NCBI RefSeq assembly: GCF_029953285.1
Contig: NZ_JASAOI010000035.1
Coordinates: 1-56,909 of the forward strand
DNA: 56,909 nucleotides
Reading direction: 5' to 3'
Source of the DNA: Yinghuangia seranimata
Lineage (GTDB): Bacteria; Actinomycetota; Actinomycetes; Streptomycetales; Streptomycetaceae
Below the pieces are notes generated by a model, which was not told the origin of the DNA, searched no databases, and worked only from the letters and a program-made list of their open reading frames with translations. Below, piece after piece: positions 48,520 to 56,909 of this stretch. Position 1 is the stretch's first letter. The number at the start of each line of letters is the position of its first letter. A program made the position numbers and the translations under genes.

Positions 48520-49662
48520 TCACCAGTGGACGGCGATCGGCGCGAGAGCGACCTTGTCGAACTTGAAGGTCCAGTCGATCTCCGCGGCGGTGATCGTGTT
48601 CACCTTGGTGCTGGTGACCAGGATCCAGGTGGTGAACTTGCCGTCCGAACCCGCCCACGCCGCCGAGAAGTTCGCGACCGGGGTGGTGCCGTTGACGCCG
48701 ATGATGGCGATCAGCGTGTTCGGGGTGAAGTTCTCACCGGTGACCTTGACGAAGGTCCACGGCCGGATGTCGGTCTTGCTCAGCGTGATCTTCCGCTGCG
48801 GGACCGGGATTTCCTTCTTCTTCACCGCGATCGGCGCCGTGGCGGTCTTCGCGCCCTGGCTCACCTGCACGGTGTAGGAGCCGTCCGCGGTGCCGGCCGC
48901 GACGGTGGCCGTCCCGCCCAGCTTGCCGTCGGCGCCGACCGCCAGGGTGTTGGCGGAGATGCCGGCCGCGTTGCAGTTCGCGCCGGCCGCGTCGCAGAGC
49001 GCGGCGGTGGCCGGGGCGTTCGGCGTCCAGTTGAGGCCCGCGAGGGTGGTCGCGGTGCCGGGCTCGACGGTGCCGGGGTCGGCGCTGAGCGTCGGGACCT
49101 CGGGCTGCGGGGTCTTGACCGGGACGGTCTCGACCGCGCCGCCGCCGGACGTGATGTCGCACGGCGTGATCTGCGTGAGGTTGTACGCCGGGATGAAGAC
49201 CTTGGTGACCAGCTTGGTCGGCGTGAAGGTCACGTCGCCCGAGGCGGTCGCGGGGATCGTCACGGAGCCGGTGTACGGCGGAGGCGTGATGGGCGCGTTC
49301 TGCGCGACGTCCATCGTGGTGGTCGCGCCGGTCACGGAGACCGTGCCGGACGCGCCGCCGCCGAGCGTGAACTCGATGGTCGGCGTCACCTGCACGCCGC
49401 TGAGCGCGACCGGGCTGGTCGCGGGGCTCGCGCCGAGCGTCACCGACGCGGTGACCGAGCCGCCGGGATCGGCCGGCTTCGGCGACATCGTCACGTCGAT
49501 GGACTGCGGTCCGACGAAGTGTTTGTTGAGCGCTTCGACGAAGCAGTCGACGGTCGGCGTGACCGTGCCCGCGGACGCCGCGGGTGCGACGGCCAGCAGG
49601 CCGCTCGCCACGATCGCCCCGGCGCCCAGGCCGGCTGCGAGCCGCCTGCCGAGTGAGGTCAT
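48520..49662 (-). CDS. Secreted modular surface protein (modules A-C-D, no anchor)
   Basis: 380 aa. The signal peptide is residues 1-31 (ends APAASA). Module A (~32-190) starts GTVTPTVDC, holds GPQSIDV and ends with a second Cys in PCDITSGGG; it is shared with the genes at 54364 and 55613. Module C (~205-295) is Ig-like with a Cys pair (LCDAAGANC). Module D (~300-378) is a TIG/Ig-like unit (KVTGENFTPNTLIAIIGVNG). It ends abruptly at AVHW with neither WxL domain nor LPXTG, so it may be released or bound by partner proteins. AAGGGAG precedes the ATG by 9 nt. It has the shared promoter and palindrome upstream. Confidence 0.85.
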   Translation of the reverse strand: MTSLGRRLAAGLGAGAIVASGLLAVAPAASAGTVTPTVDCFVEALNKHFVGPQSIDVTMSPKPADPGGSVTASVTLGASPATSPVALSGVQVTPTIEFTLGGGASGTVSVTGATTTMDVAQNAPITPPPYTGSVTIPATASGDVTFTPTKLVTKVFIPAYNLTQITPCDITSGGGAVETVPVKTPQPEVPTLSADPGTVEPGTATTLAGLNWTPNAPATAALCDAAGANCNAAGISANTLAVGADGKLGGTATVAAGTADGSYTVQVSQGAKTATAPIAVKKKEIPVPQRKITLSKTDIRPWTFVKVTGENFTPNTLIAIIGVNGTTPVANFSAAWAGSDGKFTTWILVTSTKVNTITAAEIDWTFKFDKVALAPIAVHW

Positions 49663-49753
49663 GGGGGTGGAGCTCCCTTCTGGAGGAGCAGGAAATCCGG
49701 GGGTACGGCCGGGGGCTCCCGACCCCTGTTCGGGAGCCGTCCGGCCGCACGAC

Positions 49754-49812
49754 TGAAACGTGTTACAGAAGTGGGGCTGGGACATTGAGCCGTGTATTTC
49801 CAGGGAAGTCAA
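49754..49812 (-). promoter_or_regulatory. Promoter with +10 palindrome, surface gene 1
   Basis: On the minus strand: -35 TTGACT (49812-49807), 17 nt, -10-like CTCAAT (49789-49784), 16 nt, then TGTAACACGTTTCA (49767-49754). The palindrome would lie about 10 nt into the transcript. The same spacing is found upstream of the genes at 52375 and 55613. Confidence 0.75.
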
Positions 49813-49869
49813 GAGTCGAATTACTGCGGGTAACACGCGGATCGGGGGGTGTGCAAGGCGCTGACCTGC

Positions 49870-49884
49870 GGTGACACGTGTCGA
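49870..49884. promoter_or_regulatory. 15-bp box GGTGACACGTGTCGA, copy 1
   Basis: It contains the perfect 10-bp palindrome GACACGTGTC. It lies 58 bp upstream of the -35 for the 48520-49662 gene. An identical 15-mer lies at 54018-54032. Confidence 0.55.
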
Positions 49885-49938
49885 CTTAAGGCGGCTCGGC
49901 GCGCCGGACCAATTCCGCGGGGCATTTGCAAAAACACG

Positions 49939-49981
49939 GAGGGTGCGGATCCCGTCCGCAAAGGACGGGCTCCGCACCCTC
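49939..49981 (-). terminator. Intrinsic terminator of the 785-aa WxL protein gene
   Basis: On the minus strand GAGGGTGCGGA...TCCGCACCCTC and CCCGTCC...GGACGGG build an 18-bp stem with one mismatch, followed by CGTGTTTTTGC. It begins 37 nt after the stop codon. Confidence 0.88.
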
Positions 49982-50017
49982 GTGAGGCCTCCCGGCACGG
50001 GCCGGGTCAGGCCGGGA

Positions 50018-52375
50018 TCACACCAGCGTCAGCGTCACCGTCGCGGTGTACTGACCCGCCATCTGGTACTTCGGCACCGACAGCGCCAGGTCGGCGTCCG
50101 CCGCGAACTTGCCGCCGGTCACCTGCCCCGGTCCGCTCACCGCCGACGTGCTGCACAGCAGCGCGCCGTTCACCGGGCCGGCCGAGCCGGTGCTCACCGC
50201 GCTCGGCGAATCCGGGTCGGTCACCGTGCACTTCGGCGTCCAGCGCAGCCCGGTGCTCGGGATCGCGCCGTTGGTCGGCGACGTGAACGGCGTGACCTTG
50301 GCGGTCAGCGACCAGCCCAGCTGGCTGCCCCGGAAGTCCTGCACCGTCACGGTGTTGAGCTTGCCGGTCATGGTCTGGGCGGTGCCGTTGAGCGTGATCG
50401 GCGACAGCGTGATGCCCGGGCTGGCCTGCGTCATGGCCAGCGGACCCGGGTTGACCGGGCCGCCGGTGTCGCCGCCGGTCTCGACGGTGAACTTGGCGGC
50501 CGCCGCCTTGTTCATGTCGGTGCCCTCTGCCGCCGCGATCTGGTCGGTCTGCGCCTTGGTCACGGTGAGCTGGGCGGTGAAGGTGCCGTCCGGCCCCGAC
50601 TTGAGGAACGCCAGGTCGAAGGTCGGGTTGAGGTCCTTGTCGACGCCCGCCACCGAGATGTCGACGTTCGGCGCGTAGCCGGTGCCCTTCACCGTCACCA
50701 CGGTGCCCAGCGGCCCGTGGTTCGGGGTCAGCGTCACCGCGCGGTTGTTCGCGGCGGGCGGCTGTACCTCGAGCGGCGCGGTCGCCGACGCCGTGCCGAC
50801 GGACACCTTGAACAGCCGTGCGCCCTGCGGCGCCGTGGGCTTGAGCGTCGCGGTGCCCGACAGCTTGCCGTCCGCGGCCACCGTCAGGGTGTTGGCGGAG
50901 AACGCCGCCTCGTCGCACGCCGAACCGTCGGCGGCGCACAGCGCGGGACGCGGAGTGTCCGCGCCCACGGGCCAGTTGATGCCGCCGGCGGTCACCGCGT
51001 CGCCCGCCTTCACGGCCGCCGGGGTGGCGGTCAGCGTCGGCGCGGGCGGCGCCGGGATGCCGACCTGCGCGGTCGACGAGACGCCCGGCGTGCCGGACGC
51101 GGTGCACGTCGAGGTCTGTGCGATGAGCTTGAGCGAGTAGTCGCCCGGGCTCACGCTGATCGGGCCGTTCGCGGTGACCGGGAAGGTGCCGGTCATGTCG
51201 GACGCCTGGACGACGGCCGGCGGCGCGCCCGCGCCCGGGTTCTTCTTCGGACCGTTGACGACGACCGTGCCGGTCTGCGCGCCGGTCAGGGTCACCACGC
51301 CGGACGGCGTGACGGTGTCGGCGAGCAGGATGACGCCCGGCATCTGCGGATTGCGCGGGTAGTCCTTCCACCGCCACGTGACGGTGACCTGGTCGCCGAT
51401 GCTGTAGTACGGCTTCTCCGGGCTCAGCTCCAGCACGACCTTCGGCGTCCAGCCGTAGTTCGCGTTGTTCGTCACCTGCTTGCAGTTGACCGAGTACGCG
51501 ACCGGCTCGGCCCACGCGGGTGCGTCGTTGCGCACCTTCAGCGGGACGGACACCGACGTCGCGCCGGAGGTGACGCGCAGCTTGTAGTCGCCCTCACCGG
51601 TGGTGTTGAGCACCCCGGCACGGCCGGTCAGGTTGCCGTTGGCGTCGACCGCCACACCGCTCGCGGCCACCTTCGAGGTGCCGCACGCGGTGCCGTCCGC
51701 CGCGCACAGCTCGACGAGCGGCGCGGCGCCGCCGGCAGGCCAGTTCGCCCCGGTGAGCAGCACGGGCGCGCTGCCCGGGCGGATCGCGGAGCGGCTCACG
51801 CCGAGCGTCGCGGGCTGGATGGAGCCGTCGACGTCGAGCGTGGTGGACACCCCGGGGGTGCCGGTCGCGTTGCAGGGGGTCTCCCACGTACCCACCTGGT
51901 GCGCGACGTTCTTGTAGCTGCCCGGCGACAGGCTGATGGTGCCGGGCTTGCTGACGGTGAACGTGCCGGTCATGTTCGACAGCCACAGCGGCTGGCCGCT
52001 CGGCGTCGACGCGTTCTTCTGCGGTCCGGACACCGCGACCGTGCCGCCCTGCGCGCCGGAGACGTTGACGGTGCCGAACGGCTGGACGGAGTCGGCGTTG
52101 ACGGTCACACCGGACGGGTTGTTCGCGGCGGCCTTCCACGTCCAGGTGACGGTGACCTGGTCGCCGACCGCGTACTTCGGCTTGACCGGGCTGACGCTCA
52201 GGTCGACCTGGGCGTTGAAGTCGAACGGGCCGCCGCCGACGCTCGGCGGCGTGCAGTGCACGTTGTACGCGACGGTCGCGGCATGCGCGGCAGGTGACCC
52301 CAGCGCGACGACGGCCCCGACGGTCATGACAGCGGTCCCCAGGACCGATGCCAGGGTCCTCGCGGGTTTGCGCAT
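50018..52375 (-). CDS. Large WxL-domain surface protein (modules B-C-B-C-D-WxL)
   Basis: 785 aa. The signal peptide is residues 1-33 (ends AAHAA). Module B occurs twice (~34-185 and ~291-445; shared core GDQVTVTWxWK, GAQxGTV, MTGTF, SPG). Module C, Ig-like with LCAADGxAC, occurs twice (~186-282 and ~446-543). Module D is ~544-643. The last ~142 residues look like a WxL wall-binding domain: ITLNGTAQTMTGKLN, VQDFRGSQLGWSLTAKV, then LALSVP and AGQYTATVTLTL. The second WxL tryptophan is replaced by leucine, and a Cys pair (KC...LLC) is present. GAGGAGG precedes the ATG by 9 nt. Probably binds peptidoglycan non-covalently (by analogy). Confidence 0.88.
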   Translation of the reverse strand: MRKPARTLASVLGTAVMTVGAVVALGSPAAHAATVAYNVHCTPPSVGGGPFDFNAQVDLSVSPVKPKYAVGDQVTVTWTWKAAANNPSGVTVNADSVQPFGTVNVSGAQGGTVAVSGPQKNASTPSGQPLWLSNMTGTFTVSKPGTISLSPGSYKNVAHQVGTWETPCNATGTPGVSTTLDVDGSIQPATLGVSRSAIRPGSAPVLLTGANWPAGGAAPLVELCAADGTACGTSKVAASGVAVDANGNLTGRAGVLNTTGEGDYKLRVTSGATSVSVPLKVRNDAPAWAEPVAYSVNCKQVTNNANYGWTPKVVLELSPEKPYYSIGDQVTVTWRWKDYPRNPQMPGVILLADTVTPSGVVTLTGAQTGTVVVNGPKKNPGAGAPPAVVQASDMTGTFPVTANGPISVSPGDYSLKLIAQTSTCTASGTPGVSSTAQVGIPAPPAPTLTATPAAVKAGDAVTAGGINWPVGADTPRPALCAADGSACDEAAFSANTLTVAADGKLSGTATLKPTAPQGARLFKVSVGTASATAPLEVQPPAANNRAVTLTPNHGPLGTVVTVKGTGYAPNVDISVAGVDKDLNPTFDLAFLKSGPDGTFTAQLTVTKAQTDQIAAAEGTDMNKAAAAKFTVETGGDTGGPVNPGPLAMTQASPGITLSPITLNGTAQTMTGKLNTVTVQDFRGSQLGWSLTAKVTPFTSPTNGAIPSTGLRWTPKCTVTDPDSPSAVSTGSAGPVNGALLCSTSAVSGPGQVTGGKFAADADLALSVPKYQMAGQYTATVTLTLV

Positions 52376-52519
52376 CGAGAGAGTTCCCTCCTCGGGACAG
52401 GAAGACGGCCCGTCCCGGGGTGTGCGGAAGAAGGCTGCGGGCGGCACGGGCGACGCGGTGTCAGGGGAAGGCCGCGGCCGAGTGGTCCGGTGCCCCACAC
52501 ACCGGATCCGCACCCGCAG

Positions 52520-52578
52520 TGAAACGTGTTACAGAAATGAGCTCCGCTAATTCAGCGGTGCCGGGGCCCGGAAGTCAA
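52520..52578 (-). promoter_or_regulatory. Promoter with +10 palindrome, surface gene 2
   Basis: On the minus strand: TTGACT (52578-52573), 17 nt, CTGAAT (52555-52550), 16 nt, TGTAACACGTTTCA (52533-52520). The palindrome and its flanking TTC are identical to those at 49754-49767, though the spacers differ. Confidence 0.75.
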
Positions 52579-52621
52579 GGGCGGCACGGACGTTCCAACC
52601 GTCCTTTACCCTCCGGACCCC

Positions 52622-52661
52622 GCTCAGGCTTGGCTCAGGTCCGGCTCAGGTCAGGCTCAAC
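52622..52661 (-). repeat. Four direct repeats with an 11-bp period
   Basis: GCTCAGG starts at 52622, 52633 and 52644, with a fourth diverged copy GCTCAAC at 52655: one helical turn apart. They straddle the stop codon of the 404-aa gene and lie 45-85 bp upstream of the -35 of the 785-aa gene. The layout suits a DNA-binding protein stacking on one face. Confidence 0.6.
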
Positions 52662-53860
52662 GTGACGGTCACGGCGTACGGTTCGACGCCCTGGCGCGGC
52701 GCGTCGAGCACCAGGCCCACGTCCACCTGGAACTCGCCGCCGGTCACCGCGCCGGTGCTCGCGCCCTGCTGGCACAGCAGGCCCGGGTCGAGCGCGGCAG
52801 GGCCGACGCTGCCGCTCTGCACGGCACTCGGCGACTTCGCGGTCGCGCCGCAGCGTGGCATCAGTGTGATGCGGTCGCCGGGCAGCGCGCTGCCGTTCGG
52901 GCCGGTGACGGTGCCGACCTGGCCGGTGAGCGACCAGCCGAGCGTGCTGCCGCGCTGGTCGACCACGGAGAACGGGGCGAGGCTGCCGGTCAGCGGGCCC
53001 GTGCCGTCCGCCGGCGCCGAGGTGTCGGCCGACGTGCGGGGCTGGATGAACAGCGAACCGGGCGGCGGGCCTTGCTGCGCGGCGGGTGCCGCGTCGCCGC
53101 CGGGAACGCCGGCGCCCGCACCCGCGCCCGGTCCCGTGCCGCCCGGGGAGACCGACGTGCTCGGGGCGGCGCCCGACGGCGTCGCGCCCGGCGTTGCGGT
53201 GGCCCCGGGCGTGCCCGGCGCGGGCGTGCCGCCGGGGGACGCGGTGCCTCCGGGGGTCGGGCTGCCGGTGCCGCCGGGCGTGGGCGTACCGCCGCCGCCG
53301 GGGGTCGGCGTGGTGCCGGACTGGATGCTGGTGGCCACGGCGGGTGTTCCCGTGGGCGTGCACGTCGACGGACCGACGGCCTGCCATGTGGTGAAGGCGT
53401 AGACGCCGGGGGAGAGGTCGATGCGACCGGCCGCGGTCACCTTGAACTTCCCGGTCATGTCGGACGCCGCCAGCGGCTGACCGCCCCACGACGTCGGGTT
53501 CTTGCGCGGACCGGTCATCGCGATGTCGCCGGTCTGCGCGCCGGTCGTCTTTACCACGCCGCTCGGCGTCGCGGTGTCCGCGGCGACCACGAGCCATGAA
53601 GAGGGGTTGCGCGGCGGGGTCTTCCAGTGCCACGTCACGGTGACCTCGTCACCGATCGCGTACGCCGCCTTCTGCGGCGCGACGCTCAGCTCGATCTGCG
53701 GCTGCCAGTCGAAGTCGCCGCCGTGCGCGGGCCACGTGACGCAGCGGACCGTGTCGGTGACGGCCGCGGCGCGGGCCGGCTCCGGTGCCGCGATCCCGGC
53801 CCCCGCGACGGCCGCGAGGATTCCGAGGGCCGTGAGGAGCCCGGTGCGCCGTCGTTCCAT
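52646..53860 (-). CDS. WxL-domain surface protein (modules B-linker-WxL)
   Basis: 404 aa. The signal peptide (MERRRTGLLTALGILAAVAG, ends PARAA) is ~32 residues. One module B follows (~33-180: GDEVTVTWHWK, GAQTGDIAMTGPRKNP, SDMTGKF). A ~95-residue Pro/Gly/Thr linker comes next, then a WxL-like domain (~275-404) with VVDQRGSTLGWSLTGQV, a Cys pair (PRC...LLC), and the end EPYAVTVTLSLT. The distal tryptophan is again missing. The ATG at 53860 has AAGGAAG about 10 nt upstream. It has its own promoter and no obvious terminator, so it may read into the 785-aa gene on the same strand. Confidence 0.86.
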   Translation of the reverse strand: MERRRTGLLTALGILAAVAGAGIAAPEPARAAAVTDTVRCVTWPAHGGDFDWQPQIELSVAPQKAAYAIGDEVTVTWHWKTPPRNPSSWLVVAADTATPSGVVKTTGAQTGDIAMTGPRKNPTSWGGQPLAASDMTGKFKVTAAGRIDLSPGVYAFTTWQAVGPSTCTPTGTPAVATSIQSGTTPTPGGGGTPTPGGTGSPTPGGTASPGGTPAPGTPGATATPGATPSGAAPSTSVSPGGTGPGAGAGAGVPGGDAAPAAQQGPPPGSLFIQPRTSADTSAPADGTGPLTGSLAPFSVVDQRGSTLGWSLTGQVGTVTGPNGSALPGDRITLMPRCGATAKSPSAVQSGSVGPAALDPGLLCQQGASTGAVTGGEFQVDVGLVLDAPRQGVEPYAVTVTLSLT

Positions 53861-53929
53861 GGTGCAGCGCTTCCTTTCCGCGGTGCCGTGCCGTTCGCCT
53901 TGCCCCCCGACCGGCCGCACTACTGACCG

Positions 53930-53973
53930 CCGGTTGAACAGCAATTCACCCGGCTTGACTGACGGCGTGTCAA
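53930..53973 (-). promoter_or_regulatory. Promoter and inverted repeat, surface gene 3
   Basis: On the minus strand TTGACA (53973-53968), 17 nt, GGTGAA/GTGAAT. CCGGTTGAA and TTCACCCGG (53930-53953) form an inverted repeat covering the -10 to start-site region. The TGWAACASGTTYCA palindrome of the other promoters is not at the +10 position. Confidence 0.5.
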
Positions 53974-54017
53974 GGTGTCGCGCCACAACCGGCGGTGGCC
54001 GCGGCGGGCGCGGATTT

Positions 54018-54032
54018 GGTGACACGTGTCGA
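54018..54032. promoter_or_regulatory. 15-bp box GGTGACACGTGTCGA, copy 2
   Basis: Identical to 49870-49884. It is located 45 bp upstream of the -35 for the 404-aa gene, and also upstream of the divergent LPXTG protein gene. Confidence 0.55.
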
Positions 54033-54145
54033 TCCGCTCCAGTTGGCCGATTCCATGTCAAGCGTCTTGTCGATACGGCGATTTCCCTGCTTGCGGGCGA
54101 TGCCGAACCGTTTCCCGACACCGGCGTTTTTTCTGTCGATGACTG

Positions 54146-54220
54146 TTGTTCGCTGATGCCTCTTGTCGTACCGTCACCCCAGGATCTGACATGCCATCAA
54201 TGACTGGCACAGTCTTGATG
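54146..54220 (+). promoter_or_regulatory. Candidate promoter and inverted repeat of the LPXTG protein gene
   Basis: TTGTTC (54146-54151), 17 nt, TACCGT (54169-54174) is the best promoter-like pair. An inverted repeat CATCAATGACTG...CAGTCTTGATG lies at 54195-54220, again just downstream of the start site. The rest of 53861-54363 shows no gene. Confidence 0.4.
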
Positions 54221-54363
54221 TCTCTCGGGGTGCGGTGCAGACGGGGTCTTCGAGCGACTGAAGCCCAGGTCAGCGTGCCCAGGGCCTGTGCGTTCGTACG
54301 GGCCGTCGAGTCCGTTCTCGGCCGTCGATACGACAGGCAAGTCCCCGAAGGGAGAACCACTCC

Positions 54364-55185
54364 ATGGCCAGGGCTCTCAAGTCCCTTTCCGGCGGTATAG
54401 GCGCCGCGGCGCTCGCGACCGGCGCGGTGCTGGCCTTTGCGCCGCAGGCGTCCGCAGGCACGATCAACCCGACCGTCAGCTGCACGGTCCCGGTCGTCGG
54501 CGAGCAGCACGGCCCGCAGTCCATCCAGGTGGACGTCAACCCGGCCAGCGCCGCCGCGGGCGCCAAGGTCAAGGTGAAGATGACCACCGGCGAGGCGCCT
54601 ATCAAGTCGCCGCTGGACGTCGGCAAGACCAAGGTGACGCCTTCGGCGACCTTCAAGCTGTCGACGGGCGGCACCGCCACGGTGACCGGTCCCGAGCAGG
54701 AGATCGAGGTCAAGAAGGACACGCCGCAGAAGCTCGCGCCGTGGGAGGGCGACCTCACCATTCCGGCAGGCGCCTCCGGCAAGATCGACCTGACGATCGA
54801 CAAGATGGTCACCAAGACCTCGTACGGCGACACCCCGTGCGTCATCACGGCCGGCAACGGCGTGGTCGCGAGCATCACGGTCACCGGTGGCGGAACCTCC
54901 GGCACGACGACGTCCGGCACCACGAGCGGCACGACGACGTCCGGCACGACGTCCGGCACGACGAGCGGCACGACGACGTCCGGCACGACGAGCGGCACGA
55001 CGACGTCCGGCACGACGACGTCCGGCACCAGCACGTCGGGCACCACGTCCGGCAGCCTGCCCAAGACCGGCCCGCTCGACGACGCGCTCTCCATGGGCCT
55101 GGTCGGCGGCACCGTCGGCCTGCTCGGTATCGGCGCCGTCCTCGTCGCGACCCGCAGGGTGCGCAACTCCCGTAACACCGCCTGA
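54364..55185 (+). CDS. LPXTG-anchored surface protein (module A)
   Basis: 273 aa. The signal peptide is residues 1-31 (ends PQASA). Module A (~32-175) is close to the N-terminal part of the 380-aa and 55613 proteins: GTINPTVSCTVPVVG, GPQSIQVDV, IPAGASGKIDL, TPCVITAGNGVVASI. A Thr/Ser/Gly repeat region (~178-230) spans the wall. The end is a sortase signal: LPKTG (232-236), hydrophobic LVGGTVGLLGIGAVLVA, then RRVRNSR. It should be covalently fixed to peptidoglycan; no sortase gene is in the window. ATG follows AGGGAG. A strong terminator follows. Confidence 0.9.
   Translation: MARALKSLSGGIGAAALATGAVLAFAPQASAGTINPTVSCTVPVVGEQHGPQSIQVDVNPASAAAGAKVKVKMTTGEAPIKSPLDVGKTKVTPSATFKLSTGGTATVTGPEQEIEVKKDTPQKLAPWEGDLTIPAGASGKIDLTIDKMVTKTSYGDTPCVITAGNGVVASITVTGGGTSGTTTSGTTSGTTTSGTTSGTTSGTTTSGTTSGTTTSGTTTSGTSTSGTTSGSLPKTGPLDDALSMGLVGGTVGLLGIGAVLVATRRVRNSRNTA
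54892..55053 (+). repeat. In-frame Thr-Ser-Gly coding repeat
   Basis: Alternating 12- and 15-bp units built from GGCACGACG(ACG)TCC/AGC encode TTSG and TTTSG blocks. Units keep the reading frame, so copy-number change would alter stalk length without a frameshift. Confidence 0.85.
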
Positions 55186-55204
55186 TTTTCAAACGCGCAT
55201 ATCA

Positions 55205-55241
55205 GTGCCGCCGAGCCCCCGAGGGGCGGGCTCGGCGGCAC
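55205..55241 (+). terminator. Terminator of the LPXTG protein gene
   Basis: GTGCCGCCGAGCCC and GGGCTCGGCGGCAC form a perfect 14-bp stem with a 9-nt loop, 19 nt after the stop. Confidence 0.88.
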
Positions 55242-55332
55242 CGTGCGCGCTTGTCGGAACCGGTATTCCAAGATCGGACTTGTCGGGCCAGATGGTGTAT
55301 TACGCAACTGTTAACGCGAGGCAGCTAAAGCC

Positions 55333-55391
55333 TTGACATCTGAGGCGCGTAAAGGCATCAATGGCACGCCTGGTTTTTGAAACAGGTTCCA
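55333..55391 (+). promoter_or_regulatory. Promoter with +10 palindrome, surface gene 5
   Basis: TTGACA (55333-55338), 17 nt, CATCAA (55356-55361), 16 nt, TGAAACAGGTTCCA (55378-55391). Distances are identical to those at 49754-49812 and 52520-52578, though the strand and the other bases differ. The remaining 5' region to 55612 shows no gene. An inverted GGAACCGGTATTCC lies at 55256-55269. Confidence 0.75.
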
Positions 55392-55612
55392 CCCGCACGT
55401 CGGTCTCGCGCACCTCTACCAACCCGGGGGCGTGAAGACCGCGAGACGGCCGCCTCGGCCGTGTGCGACGGAAATACGAGGCGACCGTCCCAGGACGGCA
55501 CCGGAGCGCCTAAGGCCATGGTAGTGCGCTCTCCGGCTCAACTCCGGTGTGGTGTTCGACTGCCCCGCCCCCCGGCGGCGGCAGCAGCCCCTGGAAGGGA
55601 GTAGCACCTCAA

Positions 55613-56909
55613 ATGTTCGTATCCCGTAAGAAGATCGCCGCGGGCCTTGGCGCCGTGGTGGTCGCGGGCACCGCGGGCCTGGTGGCCGTGGCGCCGGCTG
55701 CGAGCGCGGGGACGGTCACGCCGACCGCCACCTGCGTCGTGCCGGTCGTCGGCACCAAGGTGGGACCGCAGGACATCAAGGTCGACCTGACCCCGGTCAC
55801 CGGTCCGACCGGCACGGTCGTGACCGCGAACGTGGACCTCGGCCCGCCGCCGATCACCAGCCCGTTCGCCTTCGACTCGGCCAAGGCGCAGAGCACTCTG
55901 CACCTTGCCATGTCGGGTGCGGCCACCGGCACCGTGGACCTGGCCGGTCCCGAGGTGACGTTGCCGATCCCGAAGGACGTGCCGATCGACCCGGCGCCGT
56001 TCACCACGACCTTCACGATTCCGGCGGGCGCGAGCCTGGGCGCCATCAACTTCACGCCCACCGGATCGACCAACAGCACCGATATCCCGGGCTTCGGCAA
56101 GCAGGTCGCCGAGTGCACGTACGCGGGTGGCGGCGTCGTGGCGTCGTTCACGGTCAAGGCCCCCGTCCCGCAGCCGACCCTCACGGCGACGCCTCCCGGC
56201 AAGCAGCCGGGCCAGGCGATCGACCTGAACGGCACCAAGTGGACCGAGCCCGGCCCGTACAAGGTCGAGCTCTGCGACGCGGGCGGCAACGCCTGTGACG
56301 TGGCGGGCTTCTCGGCCAACACCGTCGCGGCGGACGGCTCCGGTGTGCTGACCGGCACGGCGACCCTCGCGGCCTCGGCCACGCCGGGCGCCCACCAGGT
56401 CAAGGTGTCGAACAGCGGCCAGTCGGCCTCTGCGGCGTACACCGTCGCGGGCATCCCGCCGCGGACCGGCAACATCTCGCCGGCCAGCGGCAAGGCCGGC
56501 ACCGTGGTGACCGCCACCGGCTCCAACTTCGCCCCGAACGCGTCGGTCGCGATCGCGGGTGTCGCGGGCGCCGGCCAGTCGACGGACGCGCCGACCATCG
56601 TCCAGACGGACGCGAACGGCTCGTTCAGCGGCACCATCACGGTCAACGACCCGAACACCACCGGGATCGCGATGGCCGAGGTCGCCGACCAGACCAAGGT
56701 CGTCCTCAAGTCCTTCCTGTTCATCAAGGACAACGAGGTCACGCTGAACCAGAACGCCAGCGGTGACATCAAGCCCGGTGTCCTGAACATGACCCAGACG
56801 ACCCCGGGGATCACCCTCTCCGAGATCACCCTGAACGGCACCGCGCAGACGATGAACGGCAAGCTGAACCAGGTTGCCGTCGTCGACTTCCGCGGCAGCA
56901 CCCTGGGTT
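55613..56909 (+). CDS. WxL-type surface protein (modules A-C-D-WxL), 3' end cut by the window
   Basis: Open to the window edge (432 codons visible). The signal peptide is residues 1-32 (ends PAASA). Module A is ~33-190 (GTVTPTATCVVPVVG, GPQDIKVDL, second Cys in AECTYAGGG). Module C is Ig-like with VELCDAGGNAC (~195-280), module D is ASGKAGTVVTATGSNFAPNA (~283-370). The final residues read LNMTQTTPGITLSEITLNGT then AQTMNGKLNQVAVVDFRGSTLG, matching the start of the WxL domain of the 785-aa protein right up to the expected tryptophan. About 100 more residues are expected outside the window. AAGGGAG precedes the ATG. Confidence 0.87.
   Translation, partial: MFVSRKKIAAGLGAVVVAGTAGLVAVAPAASAGTVTPTATCVVPVVGTKVGPQDIKVDLTPVTGPTGTVVTANVDLGPPPITSPFAFDSAKAQSTLHLAMSGAATGTVDLAGPEVTLPIPKDVPIDPAPFTTTFTIPAGASLGAINFTPTGSTNSTDIPGFGKQVAECTYAGGGVVASFTVKAPVPQPTLTATPPGKQPGQAIDLNGTKWTEPGPYKVELCDAGGNACDVAGFSANTVAADGSGVLTGTATLAASATPGAHQVKVSNSGQSASAAYTVAGIPPRTGNISPASGKAGTVVTATGSNFAPNASVAIAGVAGAGQSTDAPTIVQTDANGSFSGTITVNDPNTTGIAMAEVADQTKVVLKSFLFIKDNEVTLNQNASGDIKPGVLNMTQTTPGITLSEITLNGTAQTMNGKLNQVAVVDFRGSTLG

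Follow-up and report, generated by a model that had tools for sequence, protein, structure and literature searches.

A probable WxL-type cell-surface gene cluster in Yinghuangia seranimata and its recurrence among actinobacteria

Gene Content of the Locus

The contig NZ_JASAOI010000035.1 of Yinghuangia seranimata (C13 in our numbering; 56909 bases of the 9.8-Mb genome G000) was analyzed over its whole length, which is called the window here. At its right end we found five adjacent genes for secreted-looking modular proteins, g1, g2, and g3 on the minus strand and g4 and g5 on the plus strand. Three of these proteins carry, complete or cut, a divergent WxL domain, and we consider it probable (about 0.75) that the cluster forms one arm of a cell-surface system of the WxL/WxLIP/sortase type, in which actinobacteria would have a divergent counterpart to the Csc (WxL) clusters known from Bacillota. 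A preliminary description of this DNA had reported five signal-peptide proteins built from common modules, and all five reading frames and their modules were confirmed; each protein begins with a basic-hydrophobic leader with an A-x-A-like site at its end, as read from the sequence. It was also right that one protein, g4, carries LPKTG, a hydrophobic segment, and an Arg tail, and that the fifth, g5, is cut where its WxL-like domain begins, at the contig end (56909). The features are as follows.

48520-49662, minus strand: g1, 380 amino acids, modules A-C-D, without WxL domain and without sorting signal
49754-49767, minus strand: element TGTAACACGTTTCA before g1, exact 14-mer
49870-49884, minus strand: element TCGACACGTGTCACC before g1, exact 15-mer
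50018-52375, minus strand: g2, 785 amino acids, large WxL protein, B-C-B-C-D-WxL; PF13731 score 25.3 bits (cut-off 25)
50021-50428, minus strand: WxL domain of g2, first motif GWSL present, second W replaced by L, two Cys
52520-52533, minus strand: element TGTAACACGTTTCA before g2, exact 14-mer, also found in WxL clusters of relatives
52646-53860, minus strand: g3, 404 amino acids, module B, Pro/Thr/Gly linker, WxL domain
52649-53059, minus strand: WxL domain of g3, 189 bits with alignment A1 (g3 itself is one of the four A1 rows)
54018-54032, minus strand: element TCGACACGTGTCACC in the divergent intergenic region of g3 and g4, exact 15-mer
54364-55185, plus strand: g4, 273 amino acids, module A, Thr/Ser/Gly repeat linker, sorting signal
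55057-55182, plus strand: LPKTG motif, hydrophobic segment, and Arg-rich tail of g4, read from the sequence
55613->56909, plus strand: g5, A-C-D-WxL, the contig end cutting inside the WxL domain
56795-56908, plus strand: start of the WxL domain of g5, profile match

The modules were assigned by hidden Markov models seeded from this genome, and the assignment of g5 as A-C-D-WxL (partial) holds by construction of these models. The same models match in other genomes, and the same or similar architectures occur in Y. soli, in genomes G001 and G005, and in others; the sorting signal of the g4-like proteins is LPKTG in Y. soli and G001 and LAKTG in G005. In the module alignment of 11 rows, identity to the first B row is 19-28% for the A rows and 44-87% for the remaining B rows, and two Cys residues are invariant in 11/11 rows; A and B seem to be branches of a single two-cysteine domain. 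Neither module had a Pfam or NCBIfam match over cut-off. The g1 protein had no Pfam match over cut-off (best FliD_N, E 0.32) and none in NCBIfam, and a search of NCBIfam with the whole proteins returned a single immunoglobulin (Ig)-like match, below cut-off. The predicted model of module B is beta-rich (predicted local distance difference test, pLDDT, 84.7) and found no structure in the PDB at E<=0.001 (best 0.1). That C13 might end at an exact repeat was considered and rejected, the end being only 87% identical to the paralogue on contig C22.

Identity of the C-Terminal Domain

The Pfam WxL model (cut-off 25) was exceeded narrowly by g2 and clearly by the paralogue on C22 (30.8 bits). In whole-genome searches this model matched two places in the Y. 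seranimata genome and, among 14 control genomes, Lactococcus lactis only. From the loci collected first, those of Y. seranimata included, we gathered 53 domain strings, three of them incomplete, which a recount by distinct last 90 residues reduced to 47 complete domains; 24 of the 53 were picked for diversity to form profile A2, which includes genomes that were counted later (Y. seranimata and G010). PF13731 matched 24/24 of these diverse domains at E<=1 (best 1.4e-8), while the next-best family, DUF4402, matched six (best E 0.01) and the Fimbrial family one (E 0.018). When the 24-domain profile was aligned by hhalign with Bacillota WxL domains (set A5, four proteins, namely two Lactobacillaceae sequences 97% identical to each other and two from Paenibacillus), the result was 95% with E 3.9e-8 over 132 columns, compared with 0.38% and 0.36% for two control pairs. 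The preliminary reading had been staked on similarity of this kind, and it was found both in Pfam scores over the cut-off and between profiles. Sequence searches of solved structures returned no credible relative, the best E being 0.29 for the WxL domain and 0.37 for WxLIP.

The first motif, D-x-R-G-x-x-x-G-W-x-L, is strongly conserved, with D and R in 53/53 domain strings, W in 52/52, and L in 47/52. The domain is C-terminal, ending at most four residues from the frame end in 74/74 matches at the loci collected first and at most seven in later loci, and two Cys residues are present in 35 of the 47 complete domains. The preliminary description had named several hallmarks of the domain. The first motif, DxRGSxLGWSL, stands, but the second motif does not, since YTATVTLTLV-stop lacks the Trp; the typical end in actinobacteria is YTATLTLTL-x-stop. 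The second motif has been given as YXXX(L/I/V)TWXLXXXP (PMC5817068; papers cited by PMC number were available to us in part, and what is attributed to them refers to those parts), and the actinobacterial domains do not conform to it. Judged from these alignments, the C-terminal domain is of the WxL type, though divergent, and the loss of the second Trp makes the actinobacterial form a variant. This loss is not unique to actinobacteria, since two Paenibacillus WxL proteins also lack the residue.

Occurrence in Relatives and in the Phylum

A set of 61 relatives (Y. seranimata included) was searched at E<=1e-3 for WxL and E<=1e-5 for WxLIP. WxL domains were found in 27, WxLIP in 26, and both in 25, where the two are mostly neighbors. 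Based on 90 WxL and 39 WxLIP places, a WxL domain ends less than 2 kb upstream on the same strand for 33/39 WxLIP domains. For four of the remaining six (Y. seranimata C68, G001, Y. soli G002 C72, and G055) a WxL domain is located at a distance of 3-4 kb, and for two (G034 and G049 C358) the contig carries none. Up to eight WxL genes are present in one cluster (G020). Among 396 genomes of the phylum, again with Y. seranimata in both counts, at least 28 have WxL, 25 have WxLIP, and 18 have both (E<=1e-5 for each); the WxL count is a lower bound, as scoring covered the top 10 first-look candidates of each genome. In this sample, a WxL domain lies 108-351 nt upstream of 23/32 WxLIP domains. In several of the genomes counted for WxL only (e.g., L069, L077, and L091), a looser single-sequence WxLIP model matches next to the WxL gene. 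The Fisher tests of WxL/WxLIP co-occurrence ignore shared ancestry.

The WxLIP Partner and the Companion Operon

The preliminary description had predicted that a DUF916-like protein and further WxL genes would be found next to the cluster. They are present there in relatives, and in Y. seranimata they lie on another contig: no WxLIP occurs in the window before the contig end, while C68 carries the single DUF916 (WxLIP) protein of the genome (37.3 bits, cut-off 27.3) and one WxL gene. This WxLIP has a hydrophobic segment and a basic tail, and C68 ends 140 bases ahead of its start. The operon continues with an Ig-like transmembrane protein, a small WxL protein, an LAHTG protein, an LAKTG protein (A-C-D), and an A-module transmembrane protein, after which comes a response regulator.

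Eighteen regions were selected by us for retrieval. On the 8.3-Mb contig of G001, a g3-like gene and a g4-like gene (LPKTG) are followed directly by the WxLIP operon; on the 7.0-Mb contig of G005, a WxL array including g1-, g2-, and g3-like genes is followed by a g4-like gene, a g5-like gene, and then directly by the WxLIP operon. In both genomes WxL genes flank WxLIP on both sides. On the left, an HpcH/HpaI lyase gene is found in the window and in G005, and G001 has a frame with a similar C-terminal end. On the right, a response regulator is found in C68, G005, and Y. soli, followed in Y. soli by a DraK-type kinase, GtrA, and PurK. From this synteny, C68 probably continues C13. Response-regulator genes adjoin a WxL island or WxLIP operon at L053 (8097-12571), L050 (13049-13906), and L014 (128-991). 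A link between the two-component system (the response regulator and the DraK-type kinase of Y. soli) and the WxL genes is possible.

The actinobacterial WxLIP profile aligned with that of Bacillota WxLIP at 98.7% over 190 columns, and DUF916 was recognized in 9/9 actinobacterial WxLIPs tested, in eight over the cut-off. A sortase had also been predicted beside the cluster. This held elsewhere: in two of the six genomes searched, a sortase lies within ~2.5 kb of a WxL/WxLIP pair, namely at two loci of G038 (including L063) and one of G029 (C3).

Shared Sequence Elements

The element TGTAACACGTTTCA has, with at most one mismatch, only two sites in the whole Y. seranimata genome, before g1 and g2. 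In five relatives the same search gave 11 matches, of which 10 lie within WxL clusters and one elsewhere (G020:C111), so that 12/13 occurrences in six genomes are within WxL clusters; a reversed-pattern control gave no match in these six genomes. The Y. seranimata genome holds three exact copies of TCGACACGTGTCACC, one preceding g1, one in the interval from g3 to g4, and one at the 5' end of the second WxL frame on C22. Five more sites have one mismatch, one ~1 kb from the second C22 WxL gene and four elsewhere. As TCGACACGTGTCACC is present both in the window and on C22, the WxL genes at two loci have a sequence element in common. The idea of shared promoters was therefore borne out in part: exact TGTAACACGTTTCA precedes g1 and g2, and exact TCGACACGTGTCACC is found upstream of g1 and between g3 and g4, but only a form of TGTAACACGTTTCA with three mismatches precedes g5. 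We infer from their positions that these common elements may have a regulatory role.

Predicted Fold of the WxL Domain

An AlphaFold2 model of the g2 WxL domain, made from five sequences, had a mean pLDDT of 89 and a predicted template modeling score (pTM) of 0.81. Among the top 50 PDB neighbors in Foldseek, the largest class, 24 by our count, was chaperone-usher pilins or adhesins (including CfaE, CS17, Csu, Fim, Pap, and Caf1; best E 8.7e-4, TMq 0.47). GH123-type enzymes made up 12 of the 50, the first-ranked included. Only two matches reached E<=0.001, one GH123-type and one pilin/adhesin, and TMq was at most 0.51. The likeness to chaperone-usher pilins is one of fold, with TM-scores of at most ~0.5.

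Comparison with Known Systems

The cluster has much in common with the Csc/WxL clusters of Bacillota (Lactobacillus plantarum, Enterococcus, and Listeria; Siezen 2006; Hassan & Williamson 2022; Hassan 2023): a C-terminal WxL domain, a companion WxLIP (DUF916) whose C-terminal part includes a hydrophobic segment, gene clustering, larger and smaller WxL proteins, and an LPxTG-type protein (LPKTG in g4, LAHTG and LAKTG on C68). The actinobacterial clusters differ in having up to eight WxL genes, A/B modules, shared elements of their own, and two Cys in most WxL domains. The claim that the anchor types are exactly those of Csc clusters is thus right about the presence of WxL and LPxTG-type proteins and too strong as a statement of equivalence, considering the second Trp, DUF3324, and the size of the LPxTG protein. 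At the Paenibacillus loci L101 and L104 a WxL protein is near a DUF916-type protein, and the two sequences examined lack the second WxL Trp; however, no A, B, C, or D modules were seen in these two small WxL proteins, and the WxLIP of Paenibacillus urinalis still gives a weak match to DUF3324 (20.2 bits, below cut-off).

Proposed Function and Alternatives

In the reading we prefer, the window proteins would be exported through their signal peptides. The g2, g3, and g5 proteins would be held at the wall by the C-terminal WxL domain, with the membrane-anchored WxLIP of the companion operon as docking partner, as suggested by co-occurrence, gene adjacency, and published WxL/WxLIP work. Sorting signals in g4 and in the LAxTG proteins that the companion operon encodes suggest that sortases with genes elsewhere in the genome attach these proteins covalently to peptidoglycan. 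The Ig-like C/D modules may serve as stalks that raise the A/B modules off the hyphal surface, and the A/B modules, which are present in 5/5 window proteins, may be exposed contact units binding each other, a carbohydrate, or a solid surface. The genes would probably be co-regulated via the cluster-specific sites that they share. Wall binding and the formation of a complex are proposed here. Interaction has been reported for WxL proteins of Enterococcus faecium (PMC5817068, PMC9772566).

Several observations weigh against this reading. The second Trp is missing throughout: the last 12 residues contain no Trp in 47/47 distinct complete domains, and the last 14 contain none in 35/35 domains from later loci. 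The whole g3 protein has no Pfam match at E<=1, the WxL protein on C68 scores 19.8 bits, below the Pfam WxL cut-off, and g1 has an anchor of neither type. The second domain of the actinobacterial WxLIPs is not recognized as DUF3324: WxLIP_HBD was found in 0/9 at E<=10, whereas the L. plantarum control scored 136.7 bits. The DUF916 model is moreover less specific than the WxL model, matching L. lactis and Thermotoga maritima among the 14 controls at E<=1e-5. The actinobacterial LPxTG protein, with a module of ~150 amino acids, is much larger than CscD, for which 90-140 residues in total are reported (PMC1534035), and this speaks against exact Csc equivalence. In the phylum sample, 10/28 genomes with WxL have no WxLIP and 7/25 with DUF916 have no WxL. 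No sortase was found in the cluster of Y. seranimata, G001, or G005. That C13 and C68 are neighbors is probable from synteny only, and in Y. soli the regulator genes come immediately after the g5-like gene, with the WxLIP operon on another contig, so that contiguity of WxL cluster and WxLIP is not universal.

Three other explanations were considered. The C-terminal domain might be a pilin-like incomplete Ig domain that serves assembly and not wall binding, with WxLIP donating a strand during export and the WxL proteins joining each other, or a wall-bound base, into a fiber or mesh. The 24 pilins and adhesins among the top 50 fold matches, the weak DUF4402 and Fimbrial matches, the arrays of up to eight WxL genes in G020, and published AlphaFold2 models, in which a hairpin strand of WxLIP completes the WxL sandwich in parallel (Hassan 2023, PMC10599100), agree with this. 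We nevertheless regard it as rather doubtful: TM-scores of ~0.5 or less are fold-level hints, the top match and 11 others are GH123-type enzymes, no fiber is known and no search for an usher was made, and peptidoglycan binding has been reported for WxL domains of Bacillota (Brinster et al. 2007, via PMC5817068). Taking the pilin-like matches and the hairpin-strand models together, one may go on to imagine WxL/WxLIP as a monoderm relative or analogue of donor-strand systems, with WxL as a pilin-like incomplete Ig fold and WxLIP as a membrane-bound strand donor, in which Yinghuangia and its relatives would have multiplied the subunits into a fiber or mesh whose A/B-tipped proteins are interchangeable and controlled by a single dedicated operator. 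Such a model is speculative and unlikely. If it were true, the missing second Trp of the actinobacterial domains would point to a strand-groove core of another kind. The words donor, chaperone, and usher are absent from the main text of PMC10599100.

It is quite improbable, in our judgment, that these are secreted modular Ig-like proteins that bind the surface loosely, with a WxL likeness reflecting remote homology without the wall-binding function and with g4 as an unrelated sortase substrate that acquired a shuffled module. The loss of the second Trp in 47/47 domains, the lack of a Pfam match for the whole g3 protein, and the missing anchor of g1 would suit this explanation, but the frequent pairing with WxLIP (33/39 and 23/32), the common sequence elements, and the sharing of A/B modules by sortase-anchored and WxL members would not. 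A purely coincidental WxL likeness, arising from general Ig-like beta-sandwich features, was largely refuted by the profile-profile result against the two controls and is highly improbable. Beta patterns are indeed common to Ig-like folds, some scores are marginal (25.3 vs 25), and 6/24 domains weakly match DUF4402; against this stand 95% over 132 columns compared with 0.4% for the controls, the D and R (53/53) and the first W (52/52) of the motif, and the genomic association with WxLIP.

WxL systems have been presented as a trait of Bacillota, mainly of gut commensals, tied to host binding (PMC9772566, PMC10599100). That such a system recurs, in expanded form, among Streptomycetaceae and other actinobacteria implies that its function at the wall surface is more general, and it makes non-pathogenic species available in which this can be tested. 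The variant also separates what is constant (the first WxL motif, the DUF916 domain of WxLIP, and their adjacency) from what can be lost (the second Trp and a recognizable DUF3324), and the cluster-specific element TGTAACACGTTTCA is a handle for finding a regulator. More than 91% of 938 WxL sequences are in Firmicutes, the remaining 9% being unnamed in the text (PMC9772566); its supplement, or Pfam itself, may hold actinobacterial members. In one open-access library, covered mostly through titles and the starts of abstracts, with subscription journals and supplements outside, we found no account of WxL clusters in actinomycetes. DUF916 domains have been noted among the gene neighbors of Ang-2 proteins, which are reported from Actinomycetota only (PMC12537917), and this weighs against full novelty; the part of that paper available to us holds no WxL analysis of actinobacteria. 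This little-noticed surface system recurs with its usual partner in other actinobacteria and can be tested there.

Further WxL Loci

A second type of WxL locus was seen in two genomes, at L056 (G000:C22:385001-396000) and L052 (G001), where an A-C-D-WxL protein is beside an A-C-D-C-D protein that has neither WxL domain nor sorting signal. Contigs C66 and C110 of Y. seranimata (L054 and L055) are 100% identical over 16,280 bases, each with one WxL gene in a 654-residue frame; this is probably a duplicated assembly, so that the genome has perhaps seven and not eight distinct WxL genes. Y. soli has two g5-like genes, at L058 (G002:C72, 7535-8914) and L053 (5643-7190). An identical g5 common to its contigs C31 and C72 was rejected, since the genes are 76% identical as DNA (1190 columns) and are therefore paralogues; despite this, they have the same residues at the WxL domain start as displayed, which suggests gene conversion. 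Finally, plasmids of Streptomyces goshikiensis and Clavibacter phaseoli (L097 and L098) each carry a WxL-WxLIP pair with glycoside hydrolase genes nearby, which recalls the carbohydrate-utilization idea of Siezen 2006 (PMC1534035). In both plasmid records the WxL genes are annotated as "hypothetical protein" or "RICIN domain-containing protein" and their partners as "DUF916 domain-containing protein."

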